The notes below the pieces were generated by a model. It did not search any database, was not told the DNA's origin, and saw nothing but the letters and a program-made list of their open reading frames with translations. Made by a program: the position numbers and the translations under genes. Shown here one piece after another: positions 3,027 through 8,603 of a stretch of 64,000 nt of DNA. How positions within the stretch are numbered: position 1 is the stretch's first letter; the number at the start of each line of letters is the position of its first letter. The stretch is from Cupriavidus cauae (GTDB taxonomy: Bacteria > Pseudomonadota > Gammaproteobacteria > Burkholderiales > Burkholderiaceae): NCBI RefSeq assembly GCF_008632125.1, contig NZ_VWRN01000016.1:62001-126000 (forward strand), written 5' to 3'.

Positions 3027-3243
3027 CGTGTTTCCCCGTGGTCCACCGTAAAAATTGTGTTTGTCCGCGGCATAACGGCGGACCGGCGGACAAACTTGAC
3101 CGAGGAGGGCCTAGGGCTTTCCATGAGTGCAAATGCGGGCACAATCGTGGCAGTACGCGTAAAGTTACATGCACTTACTTACAAGTTAGGCTCGCGTGAA
3201 ATGCGCTGTAATACTTATTAATCACGCGCGCATTGCAGGACCA

Positions 3244-3262
3244 AATGAGAACAATTATTCTT
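3244..3262 (+). promoter_or_regulatory. candidate Fur box upstream of the PepSY/ApbE operon
   Basis: The AT-rich site AATGAGAACAATTATTCTT matches the 19-bp Fur consensus at about 11 positions by my hand alignment and contains the AATGAGAA half-site common in proteobacterial Fur boxes. It stands out in GC-rich DNA, about 190 bp before the PepSY gene. Fur control would fit a ferric-siderophore reductase role. It is inference from motif and context. Confidence 0.45.
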
Positions 3263-3436
3263 TCGGTCTCCTGAAACTCCCGTTACGACGGGCCGACGAC
3301 GGACGGCGAGAGAGCCTGCGGCAAGTCGCTGCGCCGCCGTCCCGCACGCCGCATTGCCCCGGCGACGAGCAACACGCAGTAGCGCCGGAACACAGTCATG
3401 ACCGAATCCCGCCTGGAACCCCCTTTGGAGCCGCGT

Positions 3437-4165
3437 ATGGAATCCCATATGGGCGCGGCGCAGCAGCGCCGGGCGTTCTGGCTCAAGCACCTTCACCAAT
3501 GGCACTGGATCAGCTCCGCGCTCTGCCTGATCGGCATGCTGCTGTTCGCGGTGACCGGCTTCACGCTGAACCATGCCGGACAGATCGAGGCCGAGCCGAA
3601 GGTCGTGGTTCGCAATGCCGAGGCGCCGGCCCCGGTGCTGGCGGCCTTGCAGGCCCGCAAGGCGGCCCTGGCGGGCACGAACGGCGATAGCAGCGACGGC
3701 GGCAATAGCGGCAATAGCGGCAAAAACGGCGATACCGGCAACCGCGGAAATAACGCCGCCCAGGACAAGAGCCCGGTTCCCGCCGAACTCGCCGACTGGC
3801 TGCAGCGCGAATTCGATATCGACGCGCATGGCCGCGAGGCCGAATGGTCTCCCGACGAGATTTACGTGCCGCTGCCGCGCCCGGGCGGCGATGCCTGGGT
3901 CAGCGTCGCACTGGACAGCGGCGAGACGCAGTACGAGCTGACCACGCGCGGCTGGATCTCCTACCTGAACGATCTGCACAAGGGCCGCAACACCGGCGGC
4001 GCCTGGAGCCTGTTCCTGGACCTGTTCGCGTTTGCCTGCCTGGTGTTCTGCGTGACCGGCCTGTTCCTGCTGAAGCTGCACGCCGGCGCCCGCGTCGCCA
4101 CCTGGCCGCTGGTCGGCCTGGGGCTGGTGGCACCGCTGCTGCTGGCCATCCTGTTTATCCATTGA
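3437..4165 (+). CDS. PepSY-associated transmembrane protein
   Basis: Inner-membrane protein of 242 aa from this start, first gene of a five-gene operon. Three TM helices are visible: ISSALCLIGMLLFAVTGF near the N-terminus, LFLDLFAFACLVFCVTGLFL and PLVGLGLVAPLLLAILFI near the end. Histidines sit at the membrane edges (KHLHQWHW before TM1, NDLHKGRN before TM2), as in PepSY-TM proteins, where such residues may bind haem. The periplasmic loop holds a Gly/Asn/Ser/Asp-rich insert coded by GGCAATAGC-type repeats near 3700-3740. ATG at 3437 has GGAG 6 bases upstream; an ATG at 3398 is in frame but has only a weak ribosome site. Likely passes electrons across the membrane to the periplasmic flavoprotein encoded next. 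Confidence 0.8.
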   Translation: MESHMGAAQQRRAFWLKHLHQWHWISSALCLIGMLLFAVTGFTLNHAGQIEAEPKVVVRNAEAPAPVLAALQARKAALAGTNGDSSDGGNSGNSGKNGDTGNRGNNAAQDKSPVPAELADWLQREFDIDAHGREAEWSPDEIYVPLPRPGGDAWVSVALDSGETQYELTTRGWISYLNDLHKGRNTGGAWSLFLDLFAFACLVFCVTGLFLLKLHAGARVATWPLVGLGLVAPLLLAILFIH

Positions 4166-4178
4166 CGAGGTTCCCTGT

Positions 4179-4730
4179 ATGCGTCGTTTGCTTAACGTCT
4201 CCATGACCGGCCTGGGCGGCCTCAGTGGCCTGAGCGGCCTGGCGGCGGTCTCGTTCGCCGCGCCCGCCGCGGCGGCGGAGATGAACGTCAAGGTCGAGAT
4301 CCCTCGCCTGAGCGTCGCCGAATACCACCGCCCTTATGTGGCGATGTGGCTCGAGCGCGCCGACCAGAGCCCGGTGGCGACATTGTCGGTCTGGTACGAC
4401 GTCAAGCTGAAGAACGCCGAGGGCACCAAGTGGCTCAAGGACATGCGCCAGTGGTGGCGCAAGGCCGGCCGCGATCTGCGGATGCCGGCCGACGGCATTT
4501 CCGGCGCGACCCGCGCACCGGGCGAACACACCGTCACCTTCACCGACGGCAAGGCGCCGCTGGCCAAGCTGCCCGCGGGCGAATACCAGCTGGTGGTCGA
4601 GGCCGCGCGCGAAGTCGGCGGCCGCGAACTGCTGCGCGTGCCGTTCGCCTGGCCGCCGGAAGGTTCCAAGTCGGCGCAAGCCAAGGGCCAGCACGAGCTG
4701 GGCGCCGTCACCGTCAGCCTGAAGCCGTGA
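4179..4730 (+). CDS. DUF2271 periplasmic protein with ApbE flavinylation motif
   Basis: Exported protein of 183 aa with a signal peptide (hydrophobic stretch to about residue 33, ending AAPAAAAE). It matches the DUF2271 family by its length and features ([36 protein letters not shown]). Residues 105-111 read DGISGAT, the D-x-x-(S/T)-G-A-T pattern that ApbE enzymes use to attach FMN covalently to a threonine; here that would be Thr111. An ApbE gene lies in the same operon. DUF2271 proteins are known in flavinylated extracytosolic redox systems linked to PepSY proteins. It starts 13 bp after the PepSY gene. I infer it is the periplasmic flavin carrier that reduces an external acceptor, perhaps Fe(III)-siderophore. 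Confidence 0.88.
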
Positions 4731-4801
4731 GCGTCGTGCCCCGCGCCGCCGCCCGCCGCATTCCATCCGTCCATTTCCGATCCCGTGCCCTGGAGCCCTC
4801 G

Positions 4802-5626
4802 ATGAACCGTTCCGCGATGTCCCTCTCCGCCAGGCTGTCCGCGCTGGCCCTGGTTGCGCTGCTGCCGCTGTCGGCGCATGCCCACCGCCAATGGCTGCTG
4901 CCGTCGGCCACCGTGCTGTCGGGCAGCGATCCGTGGGTGACCGTCGATGCGGCGGTGTCCAACGACCTGTTCTACTTCGAGCATTTCCCGCTGCGCCTGG
5001 ACAACCTCAGCGTCAGCGCACCGGACGGCAGCCCGGCCAAGGCCGAGAACCAGAGCACCGGCCGCTATCGCAGCACCTTCGACGTGCACCTGACCGCGCC
5101 GGGCACCTACAAGCTGGCGGTAGTCAACAACGGCCTGTTCGCCAGCTACAAGGAGAACGGCCAGACCAAGCGCTGGCGCGGCTCGGCCGAGGACTTCGCG
5201 CAGAAGGTGCCGGCCAACGCCCAGGACCTGCAGGTGACCCAGTCCGAGAGCCGGCTCGAAACCTTCGTGACCGCCGGCAAGCCGACCACCCAGGCGTTGA
5301 AGACCACCGGCCGCGGGCTGGAGCTGGCCCCCGTCACGCATCCGAACGACTTGTTCGCGGGCGAGCCGGCCAATTTCCGCCTGCTGCTCGACGGCAAGCC
5401 GGCGGCCAACGTCGAGGTCGAGGTGGTGCCGGGCGGCAATCGCTATCGCGACCAGCTCGGCGAGATGAAGGTCAAGACCGATGCGGACGGCAAGTTCACC
5501 GTCAAGTGGCCGTCGCCGGGCATGTACTGGATCGAGGCCGAGGTGCGCGATGACAAGGTTTCGATCAAGCCCGCCAAGGCGCGCCGCGCGGCCTATATGG
5601 CGACCTTCGAGGTGCTGCCGCAGTAA
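4802..5626 (+). CDS. DUF4198 periplasmic protein
   Basis: Secreted protein of 274 aa: signal peptide [20 protein letters not shown], then mature [17 protein letters not shown], the typical His-containing start of DUF4198 proteins (related to cobalt/nickel-transport accessory proteins). The rest is beta-rich, ending in a carboxypeptidase-regulatory-like repeat ([15 protein letters not shown] ... [23 protein letters not shown]). ATG at 4802 has GGAG 7 bases upstream; the open frame upstream overlaps DUF2271 in another frame and is not coding. Third gene of the electron-transfer operon, following DUF2271 by 71 bp. A metal or metallophore-binding role is plausible from the N-terminal histidine but unproven. 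Confidence 0.85.
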
Positions 5627-5658
5627 GCGCGGCGCGTTGGGTCGAGTTGGGTCCTCCG

Positions 5659-6900
5659 ATGCTGCCGATGTCCGCCGCCGCGGCGGCTCGCATGCGGTCC
5701 ACGCCGTCATCCGAGCTACCATCCGCGCCGCTATCCGCCGCGCGGCGCGTGCTGGTGCCGCTGCGTTTCGATGCGCCACCGTCGCCGCCCGAAGGCGCGG
5801 TGGTGCTGCATCGATGCGGCGGGCAGACGATGGGGACGACCTGGTCGGTGCGCTGCCTGCTGACCGCCGATGATGCTGGCGATGACAGGGGCAAAGACGC
5901 GGGCAATGACGCAGGCAAAGTCGCGGGCAATGACGCGGGCAATGACGCGCCCGGTTTCGATGCCGATGGCGATGCCGATATCGATGCCGCTGTCGATGCC
6001 GCAACGATCCAGGCCGGCATCGACGCGTTGCTCGCACAGATCGTCGGGCAGATGAGCAACTGGCTCGACGACTCCGATATCGGCCGTTTCAACGGCGCGC
6101 CCGCCGGCAGCTGGGTCTCGTTGCCGCCCGCCTGCTTTTCCGTGCTGCAGGCGGCGCTGGCGGTCGCGCGCGACAGCGGCGGCGCCTACGATCCGAGCGC
6201 GGGCCCGTTGGTGTCGCTGTGGGGCTTCGGCCCCGACGGCGCACGCGCGCTGCCGCCGACCGCCGACGAAGTCGAAGCGGCGCGCGAGCGCTGCGGCTGG
6301 GCGCGCATCGAGCTCGACGAGGAAGGACAGCGCGCGCGCCAGCCCGGCGGCGTGTCGATCGATCTGTGCGCGATCGCCAAGGGCTATGCGGTCGACGCCG
6401 TATCGGCATGGCTGTCGGCGCGCGGCGTCTCGCACCATCTGGTCGAGATCGGCGGCGAGCTGAGCGGCGAGGGCGTCAAGCCCGATGGCATGCCGTGGTG
6501 GGTCGAGCTGGAAAGCCCGCCGGCCACGGATGACGCCCGCGGCGGCGATGCCACCTTGCACGCCCGCGATGCCGCCGCCCCGACCGTGGTCGCGCTGCAC
6601 GGCCTGTCGGTCGCGACCTCCGGCGATTACCGCCGCTATTTCGACAGCGGCGGCCGCCGGTACGCCCACACGCTCGATCCCCGTACCGGCTATCCGGCCA
6701 GCCATGCGCTGGCCTCGGTGACCGTGCTGCATCGGCAATGCATGATGGCCGACGCGCTGTCGACCGCGCTGACGGTGCTCGGCCCCGAGGCCGGCATGGC
6801 CTTCGCCACGCAACGCGGCATCGCGGCGCGGATGCTGCTGCGCACGCCGCACGGCTTTGCCGAACGCGTTTCGCCCGCCTTCGCGGCGATGCTCGCATGA
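5659..6900 (+). CDS. apbE: FAD:protein FMN transferase (ApbE family)
   Basis: Transfers FMN from FAD to a threonine in target proteins. ApbE motifs are all present: GGQTMGTTWSVR at the start, DLCAIAKGYAVDAV in the middle, and RYAHTLDPRTGYP near the C-terminal third (the Mg/FAD site). The target is probably the DUF2271 protein two genes upstream. Two oddities: no convincing signal peptide can be read at the N-terminus, although targets are periplasmic, and an Asp/Gly/Asn-rich insert of about 30 residues (DAGNDAGKVAGNDAGNDA) coded by 12-bp repeats splits the protein after TTWSVRC. The start is uncertain: ATG at 5659 is used, with 5668 and TTG 5647 possible, none with a good ribosome site. Its stop overlaps the next start by ATGA. 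Confidence 0.9.
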   Translation: MLPMSAAAAARMRSTPSSELPSAPLSAARRVLVPLRFDAPPSPPEGAVVLHRCGGQTMGTTWSVRCLLTADDAGDDRGKDAGNDAGKVAGNDAGNDAPGFDADGDADIDAAVDAATIQAGIDALLAQIVGQMSNWLDDSDIGRFNGAPAGSWVSLPPACFSVLQAALAVARDSGGAYDPSAGPLVSLWGFGPDGARALPPTADEVEAARERCGWARIELDEEGQRARQPGGVSIDLCAIAKGYAVDAVSAWLSARGVSHHLVEIGGELSGEGVKPDGMPWWVELESPPATDDARGGDATLHARDAAAPTVVALHGLSVATSGDYRRYFDSGGRRYAHTLDPRTGYPASHALASVTVLHRQCMMADALSTALTVLGPEAGMAFATQRGIAARMLLRTPHGFAERVSPAFAAMLA

Positions 6901-8525
6901 ACGCGCCGCGACGATTCGGCCTGCCCTCACTGACGAGCGCGCTCGGCGTGCTCACCGCCATCAGCGGAGTGGCCGGCGCGTCCGGCCTGGCGCTGTCGCT
7001 GGCCGGCGCGGGCAAATGGCCGACCGCGGGCGGCGTCGCGCTCGCCTACGCCGGCTTCTGCGGCGCGATCCTCGCGCTGCATCGCCGTCGCCGCCAGGGC
7101 AGCGCCGCCTTCGCGTCGACCGCCGACGATGCCACGCTGATCGCCTATGCCAGCCAGACCGGGTTTGCCGAACAGCTGGCGCTGCAGACGGCGCAGGCGC
7201 TGCAGCACGCCGGCCTGCCGGTGCGGGTCGCCTCGTTTGGGGAGCTCGATCCGTCCGCGCTCGCGCGCTGCCGGCAGGCGCTCTTCGTTGCCAGCACCAC
7301 CGGCGAGGGCGATGCGCCCGACAGCGCGGCGGGCTTCACGCGCAAGCTGGCCGCCGCGAGCGGCGACGGGCTGCGCCGCCTGCGCTACGGCATCCTGGCG
7401 CTGGGCGACAGCAGCTACGCGAATTTCTGCGCCTACGGTCATGCACTGAGCGCGGCGCTGCAGCGCGCGCAGGCGCAGCCCTTGTTCGACCTGGTCGAGG
7501 TCGACAACGGCGACACCGGCGCGCTGCGCCATTGGCAGAACCACCTGTCCGCGCTGGCCGGTGGCGCCGAGATCGCGGACTGGGAGGCGCCGCGCTACGG
7601 CCGCTGGCGGCTGGTCGAACGCCGGCTGATGAATCCGGGCAGCGCCGGTGCGCCGGCCTTCCATCTGGCGCTGGAGCCCGAGTCGCCGGCCGCGCTCGAC
7701 TGGCAGGCGGGCGATATCGCGGAGATCGGCCCGCGCCTGCCCTCCACGCAGGTCGCGCAACTGCTGCGTGACCTGTCCCTCGATGGCGGCGCCGCGGTGC
7801 GCTGCGATGGCGAGGCGATGCCGCTGGCGGACGCGCTGGCCACCCGCATGCCGTTGCCCGCGCCGCATGCCGAAGCGATGCGCGGCTTGTCCCCGCAGGC
7901 GCTGATCGACGCGCTGCCGCCGCTGCCGCATCGCGAATATTCGATCGCTTCGCTGCCCACCGATGGCCGGCTCGACCTGCTGGTGCGCCAGACCCGCCAC
8001 GAGGATGGCCGGCTCGGGCTCGCGTCTGGCTGGCTGACCGAACACGCGCCGCTCGGCGCGCCGATTGCGCTGCGCGTGCGCACCAACCGCGCCTTCCATG
8101 CACCGGCCGACGACCGGCCGCTGCTGCTGATCGGCAACGGCACCGGCATGGCGGGCCTGCGCGCGCTGTTGAAGGCGCGCGCCGCCGCCGGGCACCGGCG
8201 CAACTGGCTGCTGTTCGGCGAACGCAGCGCGGCGCACGACGCCTTCTATCGGGAAGAATTGCAGGCCTGGCAGGCCGACGGCACGCTGCCGCGGCTGGAC
8301 CGGACCTGGTCGCGCGACGGTGCGCCGCTGCGCTACGTGCAGGACGCCGTGCGCGCCGCCGCGCCGCAGATCCGCGAATGGGTCGCGGCCGGCGCGGCGA
8401 TCTACGTCTGCGGCAGCCTGCAGGGCATGGCCGCGGGCGTCAACGATGCGCTGGCCGAGGTGCTGGGGACGCAGGCGCTGGCGGCGCTGGCCGAGAACGG
8501 GCGCTATCGGCGCGACGTCTACTGA
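6897..8525 (+). CDS. membrane-anchored flavodoxin/NADPH reductase (sulfite reductase flavoprotein-like)
   Basis: Diflavin reductase of 542 aa. Two hydrophobic N-terminal segments (about residues 10-60) anchor it to the membrane. They are followed by a flavodoxin domain (LIAYASQTGFAEQLALQ; ASTTGEGDAPDSA; ALGDSSYANFCAYG), a ferredoxin-reductase-type FAD domain (REYSIAS) and an NADPH site (LLLIGNGTGMAGLRALL; FGERSAAHD). The end, RYRRDVY, matches the C-terminal aromatic tail of CysJ-type reductases. It overlaps apbE by ATGA, so the two are translationally coupled. In this operon it most likely feeds NADPH electrons to the PepSY membrane protein rather than to sulfite reductase, since no cysI gene is present. 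Confidence 0.9.
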   Translation: MNAPRRFGLPSLTSALGVLTAISGVAGASGLALSLAGAGKWPTAGGVALAYAGFCGAILALHRRRRQGSAAFASTADDATLIAYASQTGFAEQLALQTAQALQHAGLPVRVASFGELDPSALARCRQALFVASTTGEGDAPDSAAGFTRKLAAASGDGLRRLRYGILALGDSSYANFCAYGHALSAALQRAQAQPLFDLVEVDNGDTGALRHWQNHLSALAGGAEIADWEAPRYGRWRLVERRLMNPGSAGAPAFHLALEPESPAALDWQAGDIAEIGPRLPSTQVAQLLRDLSLDGGAAVRCDGEAMPLADALATRMPLPAPHAEAMRGLSPQALIDALPPLPHREYSIASLPTDGRLDLLVRQTRHEDGRLGLASGWLTEHAPLGAPIALRVRTNRAFHAPADDRPLLLIGNGTGMAGLRALLKARAAAGHRRNWLLFGERSAAHDAFYREELQAWQADGTLPRLDRTWSRDGAPLRYVQDAVRAAAPQIREWVAAGAAIYVCGSLQGMAAGVNDALAEVLGTQALAALAENGRYRRDVY

Positions 8526-8555: not shown

Positions 8556-8603
8556 TTCACCGGCCCCTTCACTGGCCCCTTCACTGGCCCCTTCACCGGC
8601 CCT
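8556..8603. repeat. four 12-bp tandem repeats between convergent genes
   Basis: Four consecutive units of TTCAC(C/T)GGCCCC fill the gap between the reductase gene and the convergent lysP gene, reaching the lysP stop codon. Units 1 and 4 have C, units 2 and 3 have T at the sixth base. Confidence 0.85.

Follow-up and report, generated by a model that had tools for sequence, protein, structure and literature searches.

A putative iron-starvation metal reductase operon of Cupriavidus cauae with a flavin transferase that lacks a recognisable export leader

This study analyzed a five-gene operon within a 64,000-nucleotide stretch of the 5.75-Mb Cupriavidus cauae genome (contig NZ_VWRN01000016.1, positions 62,001 to 126,000; hereafter the window). 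Sequence comparison places the operon as a well-supported member of an already known system, and we consider it rather probable that it encodes a Fur-controlled periplasmic metal reductase of iron starvation, served by a dedicated and probably cytosolic flavin transferase. The ApbE of the operon belongs to a branch of leaderless ApbEs whose target is apparently exported. This is the feature that limited searches did not find in print, and the initial annotation of this DNA had not remarked on the missing export signal.

The genes for PepSY, DUF2271, DUF4198, ApbE, and diflavin reductase proteins that the initial annotation had listed were all recovered by profile matches, head to tail at positions 3398-8525. 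The features, numbered from the first letter of the window, are as follows.

3241..3262, strand not given: Fur-like site with 12 of 19 consensus matches (begun at 3244 in the initial annotation)
3398..4165, + strand: PepSY_TM_like_2 membrane protein (PF16357, E 7.9e-80; AlphaFold2 model pLDDT 89.9)
4179..4730, + strand: DUF2271 protein with an N-terminal leader, the expected flavinylation substrate (PF10029, E 1.3e-53)
4491..4511, + strand: codons of DGISGAT (residues 105-111), T111 being the expected FMN-bearing residue
4802..5626, + strand: DUF4198 protein, predicted mature N-terminus HRQW with the His codon at 4883 (PF10670, E 3.4e-65; model pLDDT 93.3)
5647..6900, + strand: predicted ApbE flavin transferase (PF02424, E 3.7e-83); 5647 is the earliest possible start and the true start is uncertain
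5746-5760, + strand: RVLVP segment within the ApbE gene
6897..8525, + strand: CysJ-like diflavin reductase (flavodoxin E 1.6e-23, NAD-binding E 8e-9)

The fifth protein scored E 3.8e-70 against the CysJ profile TIGR01931, yet below the cut-off of that profile, and our own reading of its sequence places two hydrophobic segments N-terminal of the flavodoxin domain. The PepSY protein, whose gene adjoins the DUF2271 and ApbE cluster, also matched PF03929 (E 2.2e-11). By our reading, the five rightward genes are flanked by two leftward ones, which resemble a chemotaxis-receptor gene on one side and an amino-acid-permease gene on the other, and no TonB receptor or iron importer was found among the neighboring genes read. 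The DUF2271 protein had its best named relatives in Cupriavidus gilardii and in a metagenome bin of Cupriavidus. Tandem repeats (6-12 bases) at 3699-3755, 4204-4246, and 5870-6001 add length to loops in PepSY and ApbE and to the leader of DUF2271, and a 12-base repeat (TTCACCGGCCCC) occurs four times at 8556-8602, immediately 3' of the operon.

Relatives were collected by scanning one genome per species, and the best 80 of 155 were kept as loci. All five genes lay on one strand in 70 of the 80 loci; eight loci had four genes (seven from Phenylobacterium without a reductase match and one on a cut contig), and two had only three. The retention of the five genes in 70 of the 80 loci shows that this layout is not due to chance. 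The gene order of the window recurred in 68 of the 70 complete loci when counted from hit coordinates (sorting by open-frame start gives 57 instead), with L055 and L068 rearranged. In a survey across the phylum, DUF2271 scored above the cut-off in 54 of 349 genomes, and an ApbE was present in all 54, compared with 258 of the 349 overall. Around the surveyed DUF2271 genes, ApbE was linked, absent, or part of a fusion with DUF2271; a distant type of DUF2271 adjoined a reductase and, mostly, an ApbE. The distribution of DUF2271 is patchy; it was found in 8 of 60 genomes in the family of the window's genome.

The same five gene kinds occur in the same listed order in Caulobacter crescentus (CC3059-CC3063, CCNA_03155-03159), a likeness of gene content and order rather than of compared sequence. 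That operon is reported to be iron- and Fur-regulated, with expression that rises under iron limitation and is released from repression when fur is mutated (PMC3751524), and an EDTA fitness defect has been described for the homologous operon of this species (PMC11870441). One of the related loci, L058, is from an uncultured Caulobacter. The PepSY-like flavinylation clusters described by Meheust et al. in 2021 likewise bring PepSY, DUF2271, ApbE, and DUF4198 together (PMC8238504), and the window contains two of the elements by which those clusters were delimited, namely a PepSY gene beside a flavinylation gene and a DUF2271 protein with a [S/T]GA[S/T] motif. In those clusters, however, NAD-binding domains lie inside the PepSY genes, and the accessible text of that paper mentions neither a separate diflavin reductase nor an ApbE without a leader.

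We infer haem binding, an electron path, a substrate metal, and a place of flavinylation. On the cytosolic side, NADPH would hand electrons to the membrane-anchored diflavin reductase, and two PepSY haems, held by H36/H228 on the cytosolic side and H59/H194 on the periplasmic side, would relay them across the membrane. The electrons would then reach the FMN at T111 of exported DUF2271, which would reduce ferric iron or a ferric chelate, and the N-terminal histidine of DUF4198 may serve to bind the metal or to pass it on. The operon ApbE would attach FMN to DUF2271 alone, most likely in the cytosol and before Sec export. The chain from NADPH through the membrane to a periplasmic flavin and the link to iron, both put forward in the initial annotation, fit our findings, but the matter is less open than was held there, because homologues have been published.

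The Fur-like site upstream of the operon, another element of the initial annotation, is present and gains support across homologues, but it is weak in the window alone. Scored against a 19-position Fur consensus, its 12 matches were equaled by 33 of 500 shuffles. The 120 homologous upstream regions, many of which stem from closely related species, averaged a best score of 13.1 versus 10.1 in shuffles, and in 80 of the 120 regions the best score was equaled by no more than one of 60 shuffles. Stronger Fur-like sites, with up to 16 of 19 matches, occupied the matching place in homologous loci. These sites and the reported response of the Caulobacter operon to iron limitation and fur mutation (PMC3751524) argue against the alternative of a system that handles copper, nickel, or another metal instead of iron, whether by reduction or by trafficking, which we regard as improbable. 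The points in favor of such a metal come from relatives of two of the proteins. IsDUF4198 of Ideonella sakaiensis (PDB 9GCB) was reported in 2025 to bind metal with a preference for nickel (PMC12537917), the PepSY_TM protein CrpH is described as supporting copper-dependent oxidases (PMC13038864), and the model of the window's DUF4198 protein comes closest in fold to Zcp entries containing copper, cobalt, or zinc.

The DUF4198 protein itself bears on this question. Its predicted cleavage between AHA and HRQW would expose an N-terminal histidine, as leader cleavage does in IsDUF4198; a histidine stands at this position in 97% of 123 unselected rows, and a leader was called in 120 of 122 DUF4198 rows by our lenient rule. 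A second alignment of 37 rows was trimmed to start at this residue, and the invariance of H1 there is therefore by choice. The histidine of the THPND segment (H153 of the mature protein) is kept in 98% of the 123 rows. By contrast, the nickel ligand His18 of IsDUF4198 is replaced by Trp in the window's protein, and this Trp is near-invariant in the 37 rows, as judged by residue number and alignment rather than superposed coordinates; this difference also speaks against nickel. The mutated His142 of Zcp (9MHI-9MHO), a protein known here from PDB titles and alignments, aligns with a residue other than histidine. The initial annotation had called the role of DUF4198 not known; one DUF4198 has been shown to bind nickel (PMC12537917). 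A second, partial DUF4198 match (L092; genome G000, contig C71) was observed in the same genome.

Four histidines of the PepSY protein are conserved in 121 rows (H36 in 99%, H59 in 94%, H194 in 100%, and H228 in 87%). The AlphaFold2 model contains three long membrane-type helices, and the four residues lie at the ends of helices one and two. To judge from the alignment, H36, H59, H194, and H228 are candidate ligands of two haems. FoxB is reported to carry two pairs of haem-ligand histidines (PMC11334425, PMC13038864), and the resemblance of the two conserved pairs to those of FoxB fits a two-haem wire. FoxB, HiuB, and other PepSY_TM ferrisiderophore reductases share the placing of histidine pairs on either side of the membrane. 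The FoxB-type reductases nevertheless have at least four membrane segments compared with three long helices in our model, and no flavinylated partner was found mentioned for them in the accessible text. A Foldseek search of the model against the PDB gave no match at E 0.001, an absence that proves nothing on a FoxB fold. With the four PepSY histidines and H1 and H153 of DUF4198 identified, the metal and haem steps can be put to a direct test. The C-terminal residue of the PepSY protein, H255 (last codon 4160-4162), is kept in 112 of the 121 rows and would face the periplasm if the third helix leads outwards.

The DGISGAT motif that the initial annotation had read at residues 105-111 of DUF2271 is there, with SGAT at 108-111, and it is the sole [ST]GA[ST] motif across the five proteins of the operon. 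The form DG[VI]SGAT was the most frequent (68 of 80 loci); SAAT, SSPT, TSPT, and TGAT also occurred, the first three of which reveal that the middle Gly of the motif is not invariant. The final Thr (T111) was kept in 99% of 125 DUF2271 rows, and Ser ended the motif in seven distant DUF2271 proteins in which the motif was found. The window's genome encodes one DUF2271 protein, one ApbE, and no FMN_bind protein. The initial annotation had suggested comparing DUF2271 with and without ApbE and mutating the Thr; this experiment has already been published for the homologue of Amantichitinum ursilacus, whose DUF2271 is flavinylated by its ApbE and loses the flavin upon a Thr-to-Ala change (2021; PMC8238504). 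The result for this homologue, the kept motif, and the co-occurrence of ApbE make FMN on T111 of the window's DUF2271 likely. The operon ApbE is a flavin transferase as far as its profile match and conserved residues indicate; all 53 linked rows that were compared retain H341, D369, and T373.

A different target for this enzyme could be imagined. The apbE stop codon and the reductase start share ATGA, and the cytosol would be the side on which the two products act. The ApbE might modify a cytosolic protein, for example by providing the diflavin reductase with FMN, and leave DUF2271 unflavinylated here. We consider this highly improbable, given that the other four proteins have no flavinylation motif, that Thr111 is kept so widely, that no other ApbE was found in the window's genome, and that a homologous ApbE/DUF2271 pair has been shown to react (PMC8238504).

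DUF2271 itself is apparently exported. The clusters of Meheust et al. further call for a signal peptide or lipid site on one or more of the flavinylation targets. By our own lenient rule, a leader was found in 117 of 124 DUF2271 rows, mostly of the Sec type; that of the window, which is extended by a Gly-Leu repeat, fails the rule. Tat export was not adopted as the route, because none of 120 leader regions matched the strict Tat pattern, although 51 of the 120 contained twin arginines. The lack of a Tat motif that would account for exporting a folded flavoprotein counts against our preferred reading.

The ApbE, by comparison, revealed no signal peptide or lipobox in the window, and none of eight scanned in-frame starts passed the lenient leader rule. 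An enzyme without an export signal and a substrate that is apparently exported pose a puzzle of place, with the enzyme inside and the substrate outside. Leader calls rested on this one rule of our own plus a spacing test, neither being SignalP; a run-length hydrophobicity score was dropped because it ran into the ApbE core and left the groups unseparated. Among 110 operon-linked ApbEs, 34 passed the lenient rule and none had a lipobox, and 32 of the 34 carried an RVLVP-like segment whose proline falls inside what would be the hydrophobic core. Taken by itself, the phylum survey gave 3 passes among 32 linked ApbEs. Among the 29 linked ApbEs of an order-level sample, which omits the places G415, G487, and G620 and the second ApbEs of order-level genomes, seven passed, including L199 with a true lipobox leader. 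Both samples together (139 linked ApbEs) thus contain one lipobox and 40 further passes, mostly through the proline-broken segment. ApbEs encoded away from DUF2271, retrieved from 34 of 41 places in the 54 surveyed genomes, had a leader in 27 of 28 cases and a lipobox in 18. The RVLVP-like element preceded the ApbE core in 89 of 110 linked versus 0 of 25 unlinked proteins, and in nine distant linked ApbEs the stretch from the upstream stop codon to the core spans only 7-12 residues (the spacing test gave no core match in L162, L174, and L175). The linked ApbEs formed one side of a branch with SH-aLRT 93 in a tree of 53 rows and SH-aLRT 98 in one of 82 rows, the latter omitting L162, L173, L174, and L175. 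L199 (genome G587) is nested in the leaderless branch, and its leader therefore looks like a later gain. ApbE-DUF2271 fusions offer an alternative answer to the location problem; the fused chains pass the leader rule in three of three cases in the first set (L132, L134, and L135) and in four in the order-level sample (L210-L213).

The missing export signal suggests that DUF2271 receives its FMN while still in the cytosol, ahead of Sec export, and we tentatively propose that an old branch of leaderless cytosolic ApbEs flavinylates DUF2271 with cytosolic FAD and that the FMN-bearing chain is then threaded through Sec. The operon ApbE might instead reach the periplasm without a recognisable leader, by non-classical export or with the RVLVP segment as a weak leader, and flavinylate its target there, as other ApbE systems do. 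The 34 linked ApbEs that pass the rule, the lipobox of L199, and a report that periplasmic localisation is essential for one ApbE (PMC12052999) point in this direction, but the proline within most of the passing segments, the nine very short N-termini, and the failure of all eight starts in the window count against it, and we find this route doubtful. The reported description of the A. ursilacus ApbE construct associated with DUF2271 as signal-peptide-truncated (PMC8238504) counts against the generality of leaderless ApbEs. A cytosolic ApbE of Klebsiella pneumoniae, like that of the window, is described as having no signal peptide (PMC12052999); its substrate, however, is a soluble cytosolic fumarate reductase, whereas the substrate expected here has a leader. 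A limited literature search, which covered accessible text of PMC8238504, PMC11334425, and PMC12052999, found no report in which a leaderless ApbE serves an exported substrate. If the flavin is attached before export, as we propose, the branch would be a widespread exception to the tagging of exported proteins by ApbE outside the cytosol. Sec would have to pass an FMN-carrying chain, and periplasmic FAD would be unneeded, setting the system apart from exported ApbEs.

The occurrence of second ApbEs followed that of FMN_bind proteins. Of the 33 linked genomes in the first survey, nine have FMN_bind, each together with a second ApbE, and the other 24, which lack FMN_bind, have exactly one ApbE each. 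In 29 further linked genomes, a second ApbE accompanied FMN_bind in 16 of 16 cases, and a single ApbE was found in 12 of the 13 without it, the exception being G752, which has an additional ApbE though no FMN_bind. Over all 62 linked genomes, a second ApbE was thus present in 25 of 25 with FMN_bind and a single one in 36 of 37 without (Fisher p=2e-16, shared ancestry uncorrected). Where the operon lacks ApbE, 13 of 19 genomes combine FMN_bind proteins with a single ApbE, compared with 0 of the 25 linked genomes with FMN_bind (Fisher p=5e-7, likewise uncorrected for shared ancestry). The ten extra ApbEs of the first set comprised two with a lipobox leader, five with a Tat-like leader, two with a hydrophobic leader, and a tenth (L176) that was unclassed. 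Such a pattern would be expected if the flavin is attached in the cytosol, prior to export, or if the enzymes are strictly specific. FMN_bind genes that travel with their own ApbE would equally account for it, and the adjoining coordinates of FMN_bind and ApbE in G560 and G589 suggest such joint travel.
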